Positions 6,853-16,431 of a stretch of DNA of 64,000 nt are shown here, piece by piece. Below the pieces are notes generated by a model. That model saw only the letters and a program-made list of their open reading frames with translations. It was not told the DNA's origin and did no database searches. The first letter of the stretch is position 1. Every line of letters begins with the position of its first letter. The DNA is from Chloroflexota bacterium (GTDB taxonomy: Bacteria; Chloroflexota; Anaerolineae; UBA2200; JACIWT01), in NCBI GenBank assembly GCA_014360825.1, contig JACIWT010000003.1, forward strand, positions 1 to 64,000, in the 5' to 3' direction. The translations under genes were made by a program, and so were the position numbers.

Positions 6853-7527
6853 ATGCAAACCAACATCCTGCTTGTCGAAGACGAAATAACCCTTCTCGAT
6901 ACTCTAAGATATAATTTGGAGAAGGAGGGCTATACTGTCTCCACAGCCACCGATGGTGTACAGGCACTGGAGATAGCCCGCCGTGACAAACCTGACCTCA
7001 TCATTTTGGACATCATGCTGCCCGAGTTGGATGGGCTTTCAGTCTGTCGGATCTTGCGGAAGGAAATGAGCGTGCCCATTATCATGCTCACTGCCCGCGG
7101 CGGAGAGGTGGATAAAATCATCGGCCTGGAAAGCGGGGCCGACGATTACATTACCAAGCCCTTCAGCCTAGGAGAGTTTCTGGCACGCGTCCGTGCTGTG
7201 TTGCGCCGGGCACCATCAACCCCCGCGGATCGCTTGGAATCAGGGGACCTCGTCGTGGATCTCATCGGCCGCCGGGCTTACCTCGGAGATAAGGAGCTGA
7301 ACCTAACCCACAAAGAATTCAGCCTCCTTGTGGAATTGATGCGTCATAAAGGCGTCGCTCTCTCCCGGGACCTGTTGCTTACGCGGGTATGGGGCTATGA
7401 GTATTACGGTGACAGTAGAACGGTGGATGTACATATCCGCTGGCTGCGAGAAAAGATCGAACAGGATCCCTCCGTTCCTCAGAGAATCCAGACCATTCGC
7501 GGCATTGGCTATCGTTTCGAGGGATAG
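6853..7527 (+). CDS. phoB: Phosphate-type response regulator PhoB (OmpR/PhoB family)
   Basis: The 224-residue protein has a receiver domain with phosphoacceptor Asp53 (LIILDIMLP), the switch threonine in MLTAR and the lysine in YITKPF, followed by an OmpR-type winged helix ending [13 protein letters not shown] use the ATG at 6853; the longer open frame back to 6757 would translate both leader hairpins and adds no conserved sequence. phoR follows after 3 bp. The pst genes 5 kb downstream carry a repeat array typical of PhoB-class operators, which supports naming it PhoB rather than a generic OmpR member. Confidence 0.88.
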
Positions 7528-7530
7528 GCT

Positions 7531-8727
7531 ATGGCCGCGAATTGGTTTTATCTCTTTGCCCTAATCGCTGGGCTCCTTCTGGCTTATGCCTTCTACCAAC
7601 TGCACTGGCTCAGGCGACGCCTCGCTGCGGCTGGAGAACACGTCGCCGAATTGACCCATGATCTTCAGGCTGAAGCAGTGAGAACTGCCTTCTACCAGGG
7701 TCAGTTGGAAGCCATCGGCGATGCCATTTCAGATGCTCTCTTCGTTGTGGATGAATCCCGCTGCGTGATCTCTCTGAATGAGGTCGCTGCTAACCTATTC
7801 CCGATCGAACACCCTATCGGCCGTCCGTTCATCGAGGTAATCCGCGACCACGAGATCCATCAGTTACTCGGGGAAACCTTGGCTGGACATGTAGGCCTCG
7901 TTCGCCAGATTTATTTAGATGACCGCGTGTTCCTTGTCCGCGCTGTGCGCTTCAGATCGGACGGGAGCAAAGGAGCAGTTATCACTCTTCGTGATATCAC
8001 TGAATTAACCCGCTTAAGCCGCGCCCGCCGCGACTTTGTCGCCAATATTTCTCATGACCTTCGCACACCCTTGACCACCATTCGCCTTTTGGTAGAAACC
8101 TTGCAGCGCGGTGCGGCAGGCGATAAAAAGCTCTGGTCACAGTTGGTGGAGCGTATTTCCGCTGAGGTGGACATGTTAGAGCGGCTGGCGCAGGAGTTAC
8201 TCGACCTCTCGCAACTGGAGTCTGGCAAGGTGCTGCTGAAGTTGACCCCCGTGTCTTTGGCACAGGTAGTAGATGAGGTAATTGATCACCTGGCCTCTCT
8301 GGCCGAGAGGAAAGGAATAACTGTTTCTTCGAAAGTAACGCCCTCCAGCCTGGCGCTGGCTGACGGCGAGAAATTATCACAAGTGCTCACCAATTTGATT
8401 CACAACGCCATCAAATTCACGCCGAACGGGGGGCGCGTTGTGGTGGACGCACAGGCCAATGATGAATGGTTGCAGGTGAGCGTAGAGGATACAGGCATTG
8501 GCATTCCGGCACAGGAACTGCCGCGCATCTTTGAGCGTTTCTACACAGTAGACCGCGCCCGAAGGCGCGCCGATAGCGGCATGGGGCTCGGCTTGGCGAT
8601 CGCCAAACACATTGTGGAAGCACACGGGGGCAGAATTTGGGCTCAGAGCGACGAAGGCCGTGGCTCGACGTTCTACTTTACAGTGCCCCGGGCCGAACCA
8701 TCTTCGTCTCCGGAAAGCGGGGCATAA
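7531..8727 (+). CDS. phoR: Sensor histidine kinase PhoR
   Basis: This 398-residue kinase has one N-terminal membrane helix (about residues 5-22), a short coiled coil, a PAS domain (about 60-155), a HisKA domain with phosphoacceptor His175 in ANISHDLRTPL, and a HATPase domain with N-box LIHNAIKFTPNGG, G1 box VEDTGIGIP and G2 box GMGLGLAIAKHIVEAHGG. It lacks a second helix and extracytoplasmic loop, so it senses phosphate indirectly, normally through PstSCAB and PhoU. It is cotranscribed with phoB. The gene ends about 40 bp before the convergent larC. phoU is not seen in the window. Confidence 0.88.
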   Translation: MAANWFYLFALIAGLLLAYAFYQLHWLRRRLAAAGEHVAELTHDLQAEAVRTAFYQGQLEAIGDAISDALFVVDESRCVISLNEVAANLFPIEHPIGRPFIEVIRDHEIHQLLGETLAGHVGLVRQIYLDDRVFLVRAVRFRSDGSKGAVITLRDITELTRLSRARRDFVANISHDLRTPLTTIRLLVETLQRGAAGDKKLWSQLVERISAEVDMLERLAQELLDLSQLESGKVLLKLTPVSLAQVVDEVIDHLASLAERKGITVSSKVTPSSLALADGEKLSQVLTNLIHNAIKFTPNGGRVVVDAQANDEWLQVSVEDTGIGIPAQELPRIFERFYTVDRARRRADSGMGLGLAIAKHIVEAHGGRIWAQSDEGRGSTFYFTVPRAEPSSSPESGA

Positions 8728-8769: not shown

Positions 8770-9957
8770 TCACAACAGTGCCCGCCCGGCCTCCATAGCC
8801 GCCTCGTATACCCGCATAAGTGGCTCCCCCGACTCCCGGGCCAGGCGCGCACAATCCTCATATTCAGGTGAGGCGCTGACTGGCTGTCCGGCCAGGTATT
8901 TCACTTTGATTCGTACCGGACCCCAGGGAGTTTCCACGGTTTGATCGCTCGTCCTCCAGGCTACATGGCGCTGCAGACGAGTTTGACGCAGGCCAAGGGT
9001 GGTGGTCTCCTGCAATATGATCTCTGCGACTGCCCCCACGCGCTCTGGTGTGGCTAGGGCGGATAACAGAATGCCAGGTCGGTTCTTCTTCATCTGGATG
9101 GGCGTGAACCACACATCCAACGCCCCAGCAACCAAGCACCGTTCCATTGTGTAACCCAACACCTGGCCCGTAGTGTCGTCCAAATTACACTCTAAGAGCA
9201 CAACCTCATCGCGCTCTGCTATCTCTAATAGCGGTTCTCCGAGGACCACACGGACTGCATTTGTCCACGGCAGTTCTCGGTCTCCAAAACCGTAGCCCAC
9301 CCTGTGCACGCTCATTGAGGGTTGATCGAAAGTGGCGAACTCAGCGAGCAGCGCAGCTCCAGTCGGTGTAAGGAGTTCGGTCTCCACAGGGGTAAACTGG
9401 ATTGGCGCTCCCACTTCGGCCAGTATCTCTAATGTAGCCGGGGCGGGGATGGGCAAAGGTCCGTGTGCCGTTTCCACCATTCCGCTGCCGGTGGGGAGGG
9501 TCGAGGCATAGACTGTGTTCACGCCCAGTCGGTGAAGTCCGACGACGAAGCCCACCACATCCACAATGCTATCCACGGCGCCGATTTCGTGGAAGTGTAC
9601 TTCATCGAGCGGAATGCCGTGCACCTTCGCTTCAGCCCGAGCCAGCCGCTCAAATACGGCGATGGCACGTGCAACCACCTGAGGGGCGAGTGTGCTCTCT
9701 TGGATAAGCGCACGGATTGCCCTTAAATCACGGTGCGGTTGGTTAGTGCTCTGGTCTACGGTCACGCGCAGTTTCGTGCCGCTTACACCACGCCGCACTT
9801 GCCGCTCCGTCGAAAGCGTGTAGCCCCCCAAAGGCAATTTCCCCAGTTCTGTCTGTAGGATATCAAGCGATAACCCGGCATCCACCAAAGCACCCAGTAA
9901 CATATCGCCGCTCGCGCCTGAGTAGCAGTCGAAGTATGCGATTACCCTATCTGGCAA
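8770..9957 (-). CDS. larC: LarC, nickel-inserting enzyme of the NPN cofactor pathway
   Basis: LarC inserts nickel into pyridinium-3,5-bisthiocarboxylate mononucleotide, the last step in making the cofactor of lactate racemase-type enzymes. The 395-residue protein starts with the family pattern YFDCYSGASGDM and carries the histidine-rich DEVHFHEIGAVDS. In Lactiplantibacillus the protein is made from larC1 and larC2 by frameshifting; here it is one uninterrupted frame. The start is TTG at 9957, three bases after the larB stop, with a GGGGGTGA ribosome site inside the end of larB. It is the last gene of the operon. Confidence 0.93.
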   Translation of the reverse strand: MPDRVIAYFDCYSGASGDMLLGALVDAGLSLDILQTELGKLPLGGYTLSTERQVRRGVSGTKLRVTVDQSTNQPHRDLRAIRALIQESTLAPQVVARAIAVFERLARAEAKVHGIPLDEVHFHEIGAVDSIVDVVGFVVGLHRLGVNTVYASTLPTGSGMVETAHGPLPIPAPATLEILAEVGAPIQFTPVETELLTPTGAALLAEFATFDQPSMSVHRVGYGFGDRELPWTNAVRVVLGEPLLEIAERDEVVLLECNLDDTTGQVLGYTMERCLVAGALDVWFTPIQMKKNRPGILLSALATPERVGAVAEIILQETTTLGLRQTRLQRHVAWRTSDQTVETPWGPVRIKVKYLAGQPVSASPEYEDCARLARESGEPLMRVYEAAMEAGRALL

Positions 9958-9960
9958 TTT

Positions 9961-10683
9961 TCACCCCCTTCGCGCCGCCGCGACGCGGTTAGCGATCCGC
10001 GCCGCCACTGCCCCCGCGCCGATGCCATTGTCAATGTTCACCACGCACAACCCTGGCGCACAGGTCTGTAGCATTGAGAGCAGCGCTCCCACGCCCTCGC
10101 CACCCAAGCCGTAGCCCACGGACGTGGGCAGTCCGATCACTGGTATATCTACCAACCCTGATACCACCGAAGGCAGTGCCCCATCCATTCCTGCAGCGAC
10201 GATGAGCACGTCCACGCCTTCCTCTTTCACCATATGCTCCAGAGGCCCAAAGAGGCGGTGCAGCCCGGCCACGCCCACATCGTAGGCGTTGTAAACGGCG
10301 CAACCAGTCTCGCGGCAGACGAGTGCGGCTTCTTCGGCGATGGGTACGTCGGCCGTCCCTGCAGTGATGATGCCCACCCTCCCGCCAGTTCGTGGCACCG
10401 ATTGCCCACTCCTGCGGAGGATTGCGGCTCGGGGCGCAGCATACCATTCAAACATTGCATCTGAACTGAACTCAGTTCTGAGCCGTGCCTCCAATGTTGG
10501 TGGCACGCGGCTGATGATAGCCCGGCCCTCTTGTTCGAGAAAACGCCGCGCGATGACGATGACTTCTTCCTCCGCCTTACAATCGGCCAAGATGATCTCG
10601 GGTATGCCACACCGTTCGGTGCGCCCGAAATCTGGACAGGCAAAATCGTTCGGTGTCTGTATTTCACTACCTGTTGAGGACAT
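9961..10683 (-). CDS. larB: LarB, nicotinic acid adenine dinucleotide carboxylase/hydrolase
   Basis: LarB carboxylates the pyridinium ring of nicotinic acid adenine dinucleotide and hydrolyses the phosphoanhydride, the first step of NPN cofactor synthesis. The 240-residue protein has the C-terminal PurE (AIR carboxylase)-like domain: GIITAGTADVPIAEEA, YDVGVAGLHR, and GLPTSVGYG. The N-terminal third is LarB-specific. The ATG at 10683 lies within the end of larE (17-bp overlap) and larC follows after 3 bp, so all three genes are translationally linked. The gene is intact. Confidence 0.93.
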   Translation of the reverse strand: MSSTGSEIQTPNDFACPDFGRTERCGIPEIILADCKAEEEVIVIARRFLEQEGRAIISRVPPTLEARLRTEFSSDAMFEWYAAPRAAILRRSGQSVPRTGGRVGIITAGTADVPIAEEAALVCRETGCAVYNAYDVGVAGLHRLFGPLEHMVKEEGVDVLIVAAGMDGALPSVVSGLVDIPVIGLPTSVGYGLGGEGVGALLSMLQTCAPGLCVVNIDNGIGAGAVAARIANRVAAARRG

Positions 10684-11482
10684 CGTTCATGCTCCCTGAT
10701 TTGAAAGCGCCCAAATCCAGCGCTACATATATGTAGCCCAGCTCGCGCAAACGCTGCACAACGCGTTGTCGATTGCCTTCCGCAGCGAGGAGTGGAATAG
10801 CCTGGGGTTCGACCTCCAGTCGGGCAATGGCGTCATGGTGACGGACGCGCACTTGTCCCAATCCGAACTCACAGCGCAGGAACTCTTCTGCTGCTTCGAC
10901 CCGGCGTAACGCTTCTGCCGTCAGCGGCGTGCCGTAGGGAAAGCGCGATGCCAAGCAGGCCATGGCTGGCTTGTTCCAAGTAGGCAGGCCACGTTGTTTG
11001 GACAAAGCACGGATATCGGCTTTTGTTAATCCGACCTCTGATAGCGGTGCCCGCGCCCCCGATTCTCTCGCCGCCTCTATGCCAGGGCGGTAGTCACCCA
11101 AGTCGTCCGCATTCGCGCCATGGATTACGTGACGCAACCCTCTCTCTCGTGCTATCTCCCACAGCCGGGTCATGAGTTCTCGCTTGCAGTGGTAACAACG
11201 GTCCGGCAAGTTTCGGGCGAACTGTGGATTATCTAATTCATTGGTCTTTATCACTTGGTAGGTCGCCCCCAGGTGTTTGGCCACTGCTTGCGCCTCCTCC
11301 AATTCGCGGCGTGGATAGCTCTCCGAATCGGCGATGACCGCCAGGACGTTCTGTGGTTTCAACACTTCAATACACACTGAAAGCAAGTACGTGCTATCTA
11401 CGCCGCCAGAGTAGGCCACTACCACGCTCCCTAATTCCTTCACAATACTTCGTAATCTCGCTAACTTCTCGTCTTCACCCAT
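10667..11482 (-). CDS. larE: LarE, ATP-dependent sulfur transferase of NPN cofactor synthesis
   Basis: LarE adenylates the carboxylates made by LarB and replaces them with thiocarboxylates, using a cysteine as sulfur source or an iron-sulfur cluster. The 271-residue protein has the PP-loop SGGVDS at residues 25-30. Candidate functional cysteines are in RCYHCK and ACLASRFPYG; which type of sulfur transfer applies is not decided here. I place the start at the ATG at 11482 because GAGGAG lies about 8 bases upstream; the open frame to 11557 runs through a strong hairpin and is not conserved in look. It overlaps larB by 17 bp. Confidence 0.9.
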   Translation of the reverse strand: MGEDEKLARLRSIVKELGSVVVAYSGGVDSTYLLSVCIEVLKPQNVLAVIADSESYPRRELEEAQAVAKHLGATYQVIKTNELDNPQFARNLPDRCYHCKRELMTRLWEIARERGLRHVIHGANADDLGDYRPGIEAARESGARAPLSEVGLTKADIRALSKQRGLPTWNKPAMACLASRFPYGTPLTAEALRRVEAAEEFLRCEFGLGQVRVRHHDAIARLEVEPQAIPLLAAEGNRQRVVQRLRELGYIYVALDLGAFKSGSMNDVLNR

Positions 11483-11507
11483 TGCTGTGTATCTCCTCAC
11501 CAAAGCA

Positions 11508-11548
11508 AAGACCACCGCCCCCGGCCTCCTGGCCAGGTCGGTGGTCTT
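11508..11548 (-). promoter_or_regulatory. Terminator-like hairpin in the larE leader
   Basis: On the minus strand a perfect 10-bp stem (AAGACCACCG with CGGTGGTCTT), containing a nested GGCC/GGCC pair, is followed by TTTGCTTT and then the larE ribosome site. It lies between the DUF3842-like gene and larE. It may terminate part of the transcription from the upstream gene or act as an attenuator; I see no known riboswitch. Confidence 0.55.
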
Positions 11549-11608
11549 CATGACCACGTTCTCCAGCAGATCCCTTATGTTGCTCGGGTTATAGGTTGGG
11601 AACCCTTT

Positions 11609-12064: not shown

Positions 12065-12084
12065 AAGCCTGTCTCCGATTCGGA

Positions 12085-12114
12085 ATTATAGCGTGAGTAA
12101 ATGTCGGCGGTCAA
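12085..12114 (-). promoter_or_regulatory. Promoter for the DUF3842-larEBC operon
   Basis: Reading the minus strand, TTGACC (12114-12109) and a perfect TATAAT (12090-12085) are 18 bp apart. The start of transcription would lie near 12078, leaving a leader of about 14 nt that contains a GGAG ribosome site before the ATG at 12064. Confidence 0.7.
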
Positions 12115-12134
12115 ACACGCGATAGTCATCTGTG

Positions 12135-12209
12135 TTAAACAGACTTAACACAAATTTAAGGACGAATTAAAAAACAGTTAAACGGCATTTAAATGTACAG
12201 TGATATGAT
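12135..12209 (+). promoter_or_regulatory. PhoB-type operator array and pstS promoter
   Basis: TTAA starts at 12135, 12145, 12156, 12167, 12178 and 12189: six units with steps of 10, 11, 11, 11 and 11 bp, all on one face of the helix. A -10 element TATGAT lies at 12204-12209, and no good -35 hexamer exists at the proper distance, so the last repeats occupy the -35 position. This is the layout of PhoB/PhoP-activated promoters (established for pho regulons). The site controls pstS and could also affect the divergent lar promoter, whose -35 ends 20 bp away. Confidence 0.8.
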
Positions 12210-12274
12210 GGTGTTGCCAAAAGAACAACTGGATCAAAAATCGTGCAAACACACAGTGAGGAGGAAACAGAACA

Positions 12275-13459
12275 ATGTTTCACAAGATCGTACGAATAGG
12301 TCTGGTCGCATTTGTAGTGCTCGGCCTTGTTGCGGGATGCGGCCCCGCTGCCACACCAACCTCGGCCGTCCCAACCCAGACCCCCCGCGTCATCGAGGGG
12401 CTTGTCACACCGACGCCGGAGCCAAAGCCTGCTCCCGGTTCCATTGCCTTGAACGGTGCTGGTGCAACTTTCCCGTGGCCAATCTATACGGAGTGGATTT
12501 TCGCCTACCAGTATGTTGATCCTTCTGTAACGATCAATTACCAAGGCATTGGTTCTGGCGGTGGAATTAAGGCGATCAAGGACGGGACCGTGGACTTCGC
12601 TGGTTCTGACTCGCTCTTGAAAGAGGAAGACTATGCCGAAAAACCAGATTTGCAGATGCTGCCTATCCTCGCGGGTGCTGTAGTTCCTATCTACAACCTT
12701 ATCGGGAAAGATGGCGAGCCTATCCAAGACCTGATCTTGGATATACCAACACTCGTTGACATCTACATGGCCAAGGTCACGAAATGGAACGATCCGAAAA
12801 TTGCGGCCCTAAATCCAGACCTGAGGGACAAACTCCCAGATGCGATCATCACTGCCGTGCACCGCTCCGATGGCTCTGGCACCACTGAGATTTTCACTAC
12901 TGCACTAGCAGGTGTAAGTGATGAATGGGAAAACAGCGTCGGCGCTGGTAAGGCTGTGGAATGGCCAGTGGACAAAGCAGGGAATGGCATCGGAGGCAAA
13001 GGTAATCCAGGAGTCGCTGCGGCGGTGCAGAACACGCCCAACTCCATTGGCTACGTCGAACTGAGCTACGCGGTCTCGAACAATATTCCGTTTGCCAAGA
13101 TGGTGAATGCCGCCGGCAACGTAGTGGTAGCCAATGCTGAGACTCTTCAGTCTGCCATGTCGGACTTCGGCACAGCCTTCGACGAAAGGCTCACCATCAA
13201 AAGCATCAGCAATGGCCAGGGCCCATATTCCTGGCCTATCTGCGGCTACACTTACCTCATCATAACTATGGAGCAGTCGGATTGTGCTAAAGCCAAGGCG
13301 TTACTCAACTACATTCGGTGGTCTTTGACCGATCCTGGCGCGGCCAAGCGTGCAGCGGACCTGGGATATGCCACCATACCTGAAGCGGTTCGCGATCTGG
13401 TACTCTCCAAACTGCAAGAGGTGAAATGCAACGGTCAGCCTGTGCTGTCCAGTGAGTAA
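12275..13459 (+). CDS. pstS: Phosphate-binding lipoprotein of the Pst transporter
   Basis: PstS captures phosphate outside the membrane and delivers it to PstCAB. The 394-residue protein has a lipoprotein signal with lipobox LVAGC (Cys22), a Thr/Pro-rich linker, and then the mature domain starting LNGAGATFPWPIY. Phosphate-contact segments are visible as YQGIGSGGGIKAI, DFAGSDSLL and HRSDGSGTTEIF. AGGAGG lies before the ATG. Synthesis is expected under low phosphate via the upstream PhoB array. A 13-bp hairpin after the gene may give more PstS than the membrane components. Confidence 0.96.
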   Translation: MFHKIVRIGLVAFVVLGLVAGCGPAATPTSAVPTQTPRVIEGLVTPTPEPKPAPGSIALNGAGATFPWPIYTEWIFAYQYVDPSVTINYQGIGSGGGIKAIKDGTVDFAGSDSLLKEEDYAEKPDLQMLPILAGAVVPIYNLIGKDGEPIQDLILDIPTLVDIYMAKVTKWNDPKIAALNPDLRDKLPDAIITAVHRSDGSGTTEIFTTALAGVSDEWENSVGAGKAVEWPVDKAGNGIGGKGNPGVAAAVQNTPNSIGYVELSYAVSNNIPFAKMVNAAGNVVVANAETLQSAMSDFGTAFDERLTIKSISNGQGPYSWPICGYTYLIITMEQSDCAKAKALLNYIRWSLTDPGAAKRAADLGYATIPEAVRDLVLSKLQEVKCNGQPVLSSE

Positions 13460-13565: not shown

Positions 13566-14576
13566 ATGTCAGTTTCTCAAAGAACGCTGAGGAAAGTGAA
13601 CGGGCCATTTGCCGCTTTTGGTCGATGGCTCCACCACGGTGACACCCCCTGGCGGCTGTTGACCTTTGTGATGGCGCTCTGTATCCTATTGGTAGTGGTG
13701 GCGATAGGAGTATCACTGTGGCAACAATCTCGACCAGCCCAGGTCGCTTTCGGTTGGCAGTTCCTCGCTCCTACCCAAGATGCGTCGTGGAACCCAGTGC
13801 TGGACAAGTTCGAGGCCTGGCCCTCCATCTACGGTACGCTGGTGACATCGCTTATCGCAGTGGTTCTGTCAGTGCCGGTGAGCATTAGTGTGGCCATTTT
13901 CCTGACCGAACTTTGCCCTGCTTGGCTGCGCACACCCCTGGGCCTCCTTATCGAATTACTGGCTGCGGTCCCTAGTGTTGTCTACGGTCTGTGGGGCATG
14001 TTTGTATTCTTGCCAACGGTTGTAACCCCAATTGGTCAATGGCTGGAAAGCGCTCTGGGAACCCTCCCGATTCTCGACGGACTTTTCTCGGGACCCGTGC
14101 CGCTCTCAGGCCTCAGTCGACTGGGTGCTGGCTTCATCCTCGCGATCATGATTCTTCCCACGATCTCGGCTGTCTCACGGGATGTGTTGCTGGCCATTCC
14201 GCGAGCACAACGCGAGGCCTCACTCGCCCTCGGCGCGACACAATGGGAGACGATCTCGCAAGTGCTCATCCCCTACGGACTTTCCGGTATCCTCGGCGCT
14301 ATACTTTTGGGCTTGGGCCGAGCGCTCGGCGAAACAATGGCGGTGACCATGGTAATAGGCAACAGTCTAGAACCCACATCTTCGCTTTTGCGCCCCGGCT
14401 CCACAATGGCCAGTGTGATTGCGAACGAGTTTGCAGAAGCAGTCAGTACACTGCACTCGAGCGCTCTGCTCGAGATAGGGCTCATTTTGTTTGCGATGAC
14501 CCTCCTATTGAATGCGATAGCCCGGTTGCTCGTGTGGAGCGTCGCCCGACGAATCCCACAGGAGGCGTGCGCATGA
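13566..14576 (+). CDS. pstC: Phosphate ABC transporter permease PstC
   Basis: PstC is one of the two membrane subunits of the phosphate importer. The 336-residue protein has about six membrane helices and a periplasmic-side loop after the first helix. The permease EAA loop lies in REASLALGATQWETI. The start ATG follows GAGGGAG. The end overlaps the pstA start by four bases (ATGA), so the two permeases are coupled. No anomaly is seen. Confidence 0.94.
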   Translation: MSVSQRTLRKVNGPFAAFGRWLHHGDTPWRLLTFVMALCILLVVVAIGVSLWQQSRPAQVAFGWQFLAPTQDASWNPVLDKFEAWPSIYGTLVTSLIAVVLSVPVSISVAIFLTELCPAWLRTPLGLLIELLAAVPSVVYGLWGMFVFLPTVVTPIGQWLESALGTLPILDGLFSGPVPLSGLSRLGAGFILAIMILPTISAVSRDVLLAIPRAQREASLALGATQWETISQVLIPYGLSGILGAILLGLGRALGETMAVTMVIGNSLEPTSSLLRPGSTMASVIANEFAEAVSTLHSSALLEIGLILFAMTLLLNAIARLLVWSVARRIPQEACA

Positions 14577-15526
14577 ATGGCACTTTGCTGAGGACAAGAT
14601 CAGGCTTACTCAACCCCAGAGCGCGATATCGTGCTCGATGCTTCAGCAACAGGTTCATGATGTTTCTGATGGGTTTGGTGACCGCATTGGCGTTTGTGCC
14701 ATTGGTATGGATTGTGACCTATGTAATGGCAAAAGGTGGTCGCTACCTGAACCCAGCGTTCTTCACTCAGCTCCCCAAACCGATGGGTGTAGAAGGCGGC
14801 GGCATACTACATGCGATCGAGGGTACGTTGCTACTTGTTGGTCTGGCCACCTTGTTTGCTATCCCTATTGGTGTACTTGCGGCTTTTTACGTTGCTGAAC
14901 ATTCCAATGCTTCTCTTGCCATTGCTGTACGTTTCGGCACAGATGTACTGGCTGGCGTGCCCTCCATTGTGATAGGATTATTTTGTTACACGGTGGTTGT
15001 GAAATCGCAAGGGCACTTCTCCGCGCTGGCGGGTGGAGTGGCACTGGCGATTATTATGTTGCCGACAATTGTCCGCACTACAGAAGAAATGCTCAAGTTG
15101 GTGCCCCGCAGCCTGCGTGAGGCCTCATTAGGGCTTGGCGCGCCGGAATGGAAAACCTCTCTCAAAGTGTTGATGCCAGCGGCGATCGAGGGCATTATCA
15201 CAGGGTTTCTACTGGCGATGGCGCGGGCAGCTGGCGAGACTGCACCCTTGTTGTTCACGGCATTGGGTAATGACCGTTACGAGATCAGCAAAATCATCCG
15301 TCAAGGTATTGCGGCAGGAATGAGTGCGGGGCAGATTATCTCTGGCGTCATCGGCCAGCCGGTGGATGCGTTGCCACTGACTTTGTGGAAATACGCACAG
15401 CAGCCTTACCCCGAGCGCATCGCCCAATCGTGGGCTGTTGCCTTGGTGCTGATGACCTTTGTCTTGTCCGTCAACGTGTTTGTGCGGATATGGATACAGC
15501 GGCGCATGTCGCGTTTGAAAGGATAA
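14573..15526 (+). CDS. pstA: Phosphate ABC transporter permease PstA
   Basis: The 317-residue second permease has about six membrane helices and an EAA loop in REASLGLGAPEWKTSLKVL. I use the ATG at 14573, which overlaps the pstC stop; longer open sequence upstream in this frame is only the shadow of pstC. GGAGG lies 6-10 bases before the ATG. The N-terminus is basic (RTRSGLLNPRARYRARCF) and probably cytoplasmic. pstB follows after 47 bp. Confidence 0.94.
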   Translation: MNGTLLRTRSGLLNPRARYRARCFSNRFMMFLMGLVTALAFVPLVWIVTYVMAKGGRYLNPAFFTQLPKPMGVEGGGILHAIEGTLLLVGLATLFAIPIGVLAAFYVAEHSNASLAIAVRFGTDVLAGVPSIVIGLFCYTVVVKSQGHFSALAGGVALAIIMLPTIVRTTEEMLKLVPRSLREASLGLGAPEWKTSLKVLMPAAIEGIITGFLLAMARAAGETAPLLFTALGNDRYEISKIIRQGIAAGMSAGQIISGVIGQPVDALPLTLWKYAQQPYPERIAQSWAVALVLMTFVLSVNVFVRIWIQRRMSRLKG

Positions 15527-15573: not shown

Positions 15574-16431
15574 ATGGAGAGGGCAATAGAACGAAAGGGG
15601 CAACTATTTGTTTTAGTTCAGCCCCTATCCTATCACTGTGAGGATGTAGCGACCGCCGTGATGGCTGGTGAGAAAATGCGGGTAGACAACGTCTCGATCT
15701 ACTACCGTAATTTCTGCGCGCTACGTGATGTGAGTCTGACAATCTTAGATCGGAGAATCACAGCCATTGTAGGGCCATCGGGCTGTGGCAAATCGACACT
15801 ACTTCGTGCTCTCAACCGTATGAACGACCTCATTCCTGGGTCACGGCTCGAGGGAACCGTGTGGCTTGGCAATCAAAACATCTATGGCCCCGGCGTGGAT
15901 GTGGTAGAGGTCCGTCGGCGCGTCGGTATGGTTTGGCAGAAGCCTAACCCGTTCCCTAAGTCCATTTTCGACAATGTCGCCTATGGTCCTCGCTTGTATG
16001 GAGTACGCGGTGGGGCGTTGAAGGAATTGGTCGAAGCCAGCCTGCGTCGCGCTGCACTATGGGACGAGGTAAAAGACATACTTCATCAGCCCGCCTTAGC
16101 CCTTTCCGGTGGGCAACAACAACGTTTGTGCATTGCTCGGGCTTTGGCTGTGGAACCCGAGGTCATCCTAATGGACGAACCTTGCTCGGCTCTTGACCCC
16201 TTCGCCACATTGCGTATTGAGGACCTGATGCGGGAACTCCGGCGGGACTACGCCATTGTCATCGTTACCCATAATATGCAGCAGGCAGCTCGCGTGTCCG
16301 ACTACACCGCTGTTTTTACAATGGAAAAGGATCGCTCCGGTGTGTTAGTGGAATATGGCCCAACGAGTGAAATCTTCACCAACCCGAAGGACAAGCGCAC
16401 CGAAAACTATATCACAGGCCGTTTCGGCTGA
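15574..16431 (+). CDS. pstB: Phosphate ABC transporter ATPase PstB
   Basis: PstB powers phosphate uptake. The 285-residue frame has Walker [10 protein letters not shown] (residues 67-75), signature LSGGQQQR, Walker B VILMDEP with CSALDP, and the H-loop histidine in IVTHNMQQ. It is about 25-30 residues longer than usual at the N-terminus; ATGs at 15661 and 15676 would give the standard length, but the best ribosome site (GAGGGGG) precedes 15574. A terminator follows at 16550. phoU does not follow, unlike in many pst operons. Confidence 0.93.

Follow-up and report, generated by a model that had tools for sequence, protein, structure and literature searches.

A probable PhoB-type operator with an apparently inverted distal unit at the pstS promoter of a Chloroflexota bacterium

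Introduction

In Escherichia coli, the Pho box recognized by PhoB consists of 11-nt direct repeats located at the would-be -35 position upstream of the pst genes (PMC4415409, PMC1906773), and PhoB binds them head-to-tail while its receivers dimerize head-to-head (PMC4415409). The cyanobacterial SphR Pho box contains CTTAACCT units separated by 3-bp linkers (PMC1906773), and the PhoP operators of Streptomyces (e.g., pitH2) are made of 11-nt direct units, with up to four core and two ancillary units (PMC7866108). Inverted repeats are bound by RegX3, a regulator responsive to phosphate starvation that recognizes an inverted GTGAAC repeat with 5-7 bp between the halves (PMC7525159), and by AgrR, of the OmpR family, whose box has a 6-4-6 geometry with an extra direct half-site at some operators (PMC7380067). 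The literature searched contained no account of a Pho box from Chloroflexota. Here, we analyzed a TTAA array upstream of pstS in a 64,000-nucleotide stretch of DNA from a Chloroflexota bacterium (hereafter the window).

Results

The window carries pstSCAB, all four products scoring above the cut-offs of their models, and a regulator/kinase pair upstream of it. The genes considered are the following:

6853-7527, plus strand: OmpR/PhoB-family response regulator, ortholog of the pst-linked regulators of relatives
7531-8727, plus strand: PhoR/PnpS-like histidine kinase (best models PnpS, 315.4 bits, and PhoR, 281.1 bits, both under cut-off)
12064-11609, minus strand: DUF3842 gene, on the other side of the intergenic region
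12275-13459, plus strand: pstS, phosphate-binding lipoprotein (TIGR00975, 332.9 bits)
13566-14576, plus strand: pstC (TIGR02138, 296 bits)
14570-15526, plus strand: pstA, start codon approximate (TIGR00974, 279.4 bits)
15574-16431, plus strand: pstB (TIGR00972, 377.6 bits)

About 3.5 kb separates the end of the kinase gene from pstS, and other genes occupy this interval. Three genes between the pair and pst, on the minus strand (8770-11557), resemble larC, larB and larE (nickel-pincer cofactor) by eye. The PhoU gene of this genome lies away from pst, on contig C9.

We then delimited the following elements in front of pstS:

12132-12151: perfect inverted repeat GTGTTAA-N6-TTAACAC, which encloses the distal pair
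12134-12149, no strand assigned: distal inverted pair GTTAAA-CAGA-CTTAAC, made of unit 1 (inverted, as judged from relatives) and unit 2 (direct) at a 10-bp step
12145-12192, plus strand: five direct TTAA units (12145, 12156, 12167, 12178, 12189) with a period of 11 bp
12156-12209, plus strand: canonical four-unit block and -10, the portion common to the pstS promoters of relatives (match to profile R1)
12201-12209, plus strand: extended -10, TGA followed by TATGAT, without a -35
12258-12264, plus strand: Shine-Dalgarno-like GAGGAGG of pstS

A first-pass annotation of this DNA had placed six TTAA and a -10 at 12204 at the pstS promoter, and all of these positions were confirmed: TTAA starts at 12135, 12145, 12156, 12167, 12178 and 12189, in steps of 10, 11, 11, 11 and 11 bp, and the start of the last one lies 15 bp before the start of TATGAT (12204-12209), itself extended by TGA at 12201-12203. 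Its claim that a good -35 is lacking was also borne out, since the letters at that position (12181-12186) are AACGGC and no consensus -35 is present. The array had been described as six 11-bp repeats; the six units stand, but the distal step measures 10 bp and the unit there appears inverted, so that the array is not uniformly direct. The unit consensus given at that time, TTAAACnnnnn, did not hold, as TTAAAC is found in units 1 and 5 only and TTAAC in unit 2 only. The common core is TTAA(C), reduced in the six window units to TTAA alone. As in a Pho box, five units are 11-bp direct repeats (the sixth being inverted and at 10 bp), the array occupies the -35 location in a fixed register to a sigma70-type -10, a 15-bp register that recurs in relatives, and phosphate-scavenging genes follow, pstSCAB here and phosphate genes in relatives. 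A promoter reading in the opposite direction, towards the minus-strand DUF3842 gene, was rejected: the distal unit has only a poor -10 on that strand, and arrays with a 10-bp distal step precede same-strand genes in one relative (L124).

The array is not a chance low-complexity AT run, as indicated by shuffles, genome counts and the comparative register. In 20,000 shuffles of the 210-bp intergenic region (12065-12274) that kept its dinucleotides, chains of TTAA at 10-12 bp reached at most three units (6 shuffles), against six observed. Of the five TTAA-N7-TTAA matches in the genome (2.89 Mb, 64 contigs), four belong to the pstS array; the fifth, inside a 416-aa open reading frame, was rejected as a second site. 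A triple with one mismatch was found at the pstS array and at one other place in the whole genome. This other match was also rejected, with one unit mismatched and no exactly spaced TTAA pair near. In the window, TTAA is under-represented (76 found for about 169 expected from base composition), and no second TTAA pair at the array spacing is present elsewhere. Profile R1, built from 20 sequences including that of the window, retrieved the pstS site as its top match in this genome (19.4 bits, E 0.004) and no second convincing site, with one further match only at chance level (E 2.5). The suggestion that the repeat consensus could locate the rest of the regulon was thus not supported by a genome scan with this promoter model. 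Occurrence of the array at promoters without a link to phosphate had been named as evidence against phosphate control; no such case was found in this genome, and a second class of arrays in relatives, described below, differs in its distance to the -10.

To compare the array with those of relatives, we used 298 genomes of the same class. TIGR00975 was present in 43 of them, and 42 pstS upstream regions had enough DNA to be read, counting the window and the Chloroflexota MAG L019. A phased TTAA array was observed in 29/42 (p ≤ 0.01, with mononucleotide shuffles of each region as the reference and genomes counted irrespective of ancestry), and the 13 others had no detectable array. The usual form has four units, of which the first two read TTAAC, the third is weak (TTGA, TTCC or TTTA) and the fourth is TTAA; TANNNT follows after 11 bp. 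The unit consensus is TTAAC. The last unit typically lies 15 bp before the -10, a register set by the scoring yet satisfied with high -10 scores, and TG occupies the extended -10 position in 11 of 20 aligned promoters. In several relatives, pstS is immediately 3' of a histidine kinase gene, and the kinase of the window (7531-8727) resembles those found beside pstS.

A search blind to gene identity detected four exact TTAA at 11 bp in 32/298 genomes, with about 53 matches for the forward pattern and 6 for a reversed-pattern control. The genes located 3' of these arrays were mostly linked to phosphate (PstS-type, PstB, PhoU, the Na/Pi cotransporter NptA, PHO4 and OmpR-type response regulators), which is the strongest argument for reading the array as a phosphate operator. 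PHP-domain proteins were also encountered, with weak Pfam scores, and a minority of arrays had no clear phosphate link, preceding an FHA protein (L036) or genes without a recognized product (L034 and L045). Such arrays extend to other classes of the phylum, where they lie upstream of PstS-like, PHO4 and MGS-like genes. Those before MGS-like (methylglyoxal synthase type) genes have four to five TTAAC units and a -10 at +15 (L179, L180, L182, L186, L187 and L194); Pfam MGS was confirmed for L179, L182 and L187, and our literature search returned no paper on such arrays before MGS-like genes. DUF3419 genes adjoin two Pho-type arrays (L111:2778-3968 and L106:1125-2348), the array of L106 pointing away from the DUF3419 gene. 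This family includes BtaA-type betaine-lipid enzymes, and its position beside Pho-type arrays fits phosphate-sparing membrane lipids.

Among 59 scored arrays, 27 had four units, 4 had five and 24 had six; the phase search required at least four units, which inflates counts of four, and the share of six-unit arrays is partly a matter of ascertainment. A unique six-unit array was rejected, six units recurring in relatives. Six units are equally not exceptional in the sense first annotated, the Streptomyces pitH2 operator having four core and two ancillary units (PMC7866108).

A second class of TTAA arrays with an 11-bp period was observed in relatives (L114-L119, L133, L134, L038 and L049), with TTAA(A/G) units, the last often TTAACCAC. 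Its -10 lies about 26 bp downstream, and the genes that follow encode DUF5666, PepSY, glycosyltransferase or unknown proteins. Arrays of this class probably serve as operators for a different member of the OmpR family.

We also considered whether an OmpR-family paralog could bind the window array for something other than phosphate, given that the genome encodes about a dozen OmpR-type regulators and that the second class sits at non-phosphate genes. We judge this highly improbable: the window array has its -10 at +15 and lies before pst, in contrast to the second class, and the regulator at 6853 is orthologous to pst-linked regulators. The latter point was established by comparison with the relatives. 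The 6853 regulator shares 56-70% identity with their pst-linked regulators and is their reciprocal best hit in 11/11 cases. In the tree, it groups with three of them with a support of 100/98, and a weaker branch (89/85) unites it with all eleven. Against TIGR02154, the PhoB equivalog model, it scored 235.8 bits, under the curated cut-off of 296.2, a value reached in only 2 of 14 control genomes. Despite this score, sequence comparison identifies it as the ortholog of the pst-linked regulators, and the PhoB gene annotated nearby is supported in this respect, even if it misses the cut-off for the name. Two paralogs (C1:17257-17916 and C3:183129-183803, G000) outscore it on the PhoB model and are not orthologs of pst-linked regulators. 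Among solved structures, RegX3 of Mycobacterium tuberculosis (2oqr) is the nearest in sequence to the 6853 regulator. No TTAA array precedes the gene at 6853; in L124, such an array lies directly 5' of the ortholog.

Regarding the distal end, the step farthest from the gene was 10 bp in 22 oriented arrays of the 59 and 12 bp in none. Units at a 10-bp distal step were preceded by G in 19/22 cases and followed by C in 0/22, whereas those at an 11-bp distal step were preceded by G in 8/30 and followed by C in 25/30 (Fisher, 2e-5 for the preceding G and 3e-10 for the following C, with each array counted as an independent observation irrespective of shared ancestry). The remaining units had G before in 47/166 and C after in 84/166. 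In relatives, the 10-bp distal unit accordingly reads GTTAA(A/G) and not TTAAC. Since these flanks are those of a reversed unit, we conclude from the relatives that the 10-bp distal unit is inverted relative to the others. The consensus of the distal pair is GTTAAR-N4-YTTAAC, with perfect 6-4-6 palindromes in 8 of the 25 listed; the inner base pair of the palindrome showed no significant covariation (p 0.25). The inverted unit was found in families f1, f22, f40, f42, f43, f45, f46 and f47, at PstS and other genes. In another class, the arrays that family f76 (L201-L206) carries upstream of a PstS-like gene have steps of 11, 10, 11 and 11 bp, the 10-bp step falling between units 2 and 3, where TTAAAGG is read.

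Two other readings of this distal pair were weighed. In the first, the operator is of PhoB type with all six units bound head-to-tail, and the 10-bp step and its flanks are a spacing variant without a separate function. TTAA is palindromic, and the core therefore hides orientation; spacing tolerance is known in the OmpR family, OmpR itself using 10-bp half-sites (cited in PMC7380067); and six all-direct units do exist in other classes (L188). However, there is a sharp change of flanks, from TTAAC to GTTAA(A/G), shared by arrays of many families, and the distal step shortens without ever lengthening to 12 bp, which makes this reading rather unlikely, if a serious competitor. In the second, the palindrome would be the site of a different regulator overlapping the Pho array. 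The dyad is near-perfect, and a CcpA site lies right beside a Pho box in Bacillus subtilis (PMC4415409). Nevertheless, the second half of the palindrome is the first direct unit, with the same TTAA(C) core, and the palindrome forms the distal end in 22/59 arrays; we consider this second reading improbable.

Discussion

Taken together, the arrays found mostly at phosphate genes in relatives and the orthology of the 6853 regulator with pst-linked regulators indicate that the window array is very probably a PhoB-type activator operator, a Pho box array, of pstSCAB. Under phosphate limitation, the kinase (7531-8727) would phosphorylate the regulator (6853-7527); the latter would then bind the array, its effector domains lying head-to-tail along the 11-bp direct units. 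Placed next to the promoter, at the would-be -35, the bound regulator would bring RNA polymerase to the extended -10. At the far end, the pair at 12134-12149 would most likely be bound head-to-head as a palindrome, and six units could then accommodate three dimers, of which one would be a symmetric anchor and the other two tandem. The rarity of five-unit arrays (4, for 24 with six units) is in line with this prediction of dimer binding. The extra distal units would probably raise affinity or cooperativity.

On this view, the array may be a composite operator, in which one phosphate regulator would bind the distal pair head-to-head and the remaining units head-to-tail, the inverted terminal half-site anchoring or capping an array kept across many families of one Chloroflexota class. 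We give this proposal an even chance. By analogy, it is made plausible by RegX3 and AgrR, which bind palindromes, and by PhoB, which binds head-to-tail with head-to-head receivers.

The switch itself appears to be of a well-known kind, and the outermost repeat, apparently reversed and one base closer, recurs in many relatives. The conserved register provides a usable Pho-box model for a large and mostly uncultured phylum. If the inverted distal unit is functional, the tandem binding mode of PhoB and the palindromic one of RegX3 and AgrR would coexist on one operator, and natural DNA would then offer a test of a long-standing question, namely how receiver dimers with two-fold symmetry are loaded onto direct repeats.

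The window array shares with the E. coli Pho box the 11-nt direct units, the -35 placement and the pst genes, but the E. coli core is CTGTCAT where TTAAC is found here, and the distal inverted unit is a feature of the present array. The cyanobacterial SphR box has an 11-bp period and almost the same core, in at least three direct units. Compared with the SphR consensus CTTAACCT plus 3-bp linker, the window has the TTAA core and the period, with TTAAC in a single unit, although TTAAC is the consensus of relatives; we saw no inverted distal unit described for the SphR box in PMC1906773. The PhoP operators of Streptomyces are similarly built of 11-nt direct units, with a GTTCACC core (PMC4415409) in direct repeats. 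RegX3, the protein of solved structure most similar in sequence to the 6853 regulator, has a comparable inverted arrangement. Its core is GTGAAC/GTTCAC, unlike the GTTAAR/YTTAAC arms found here, so that the arrangement alone is alike, and no long direct array is attached in the motif as described. The AgrR box has the same 6-4-6 inverted repeat, but belongs to the silver response, with an ATTACA core and one extra direct half-site upstream and/or downstream. Overall, the distal inverted pair resembles the palindromes of AgrR and RegX3, joined here to a PhoB-like direct array.
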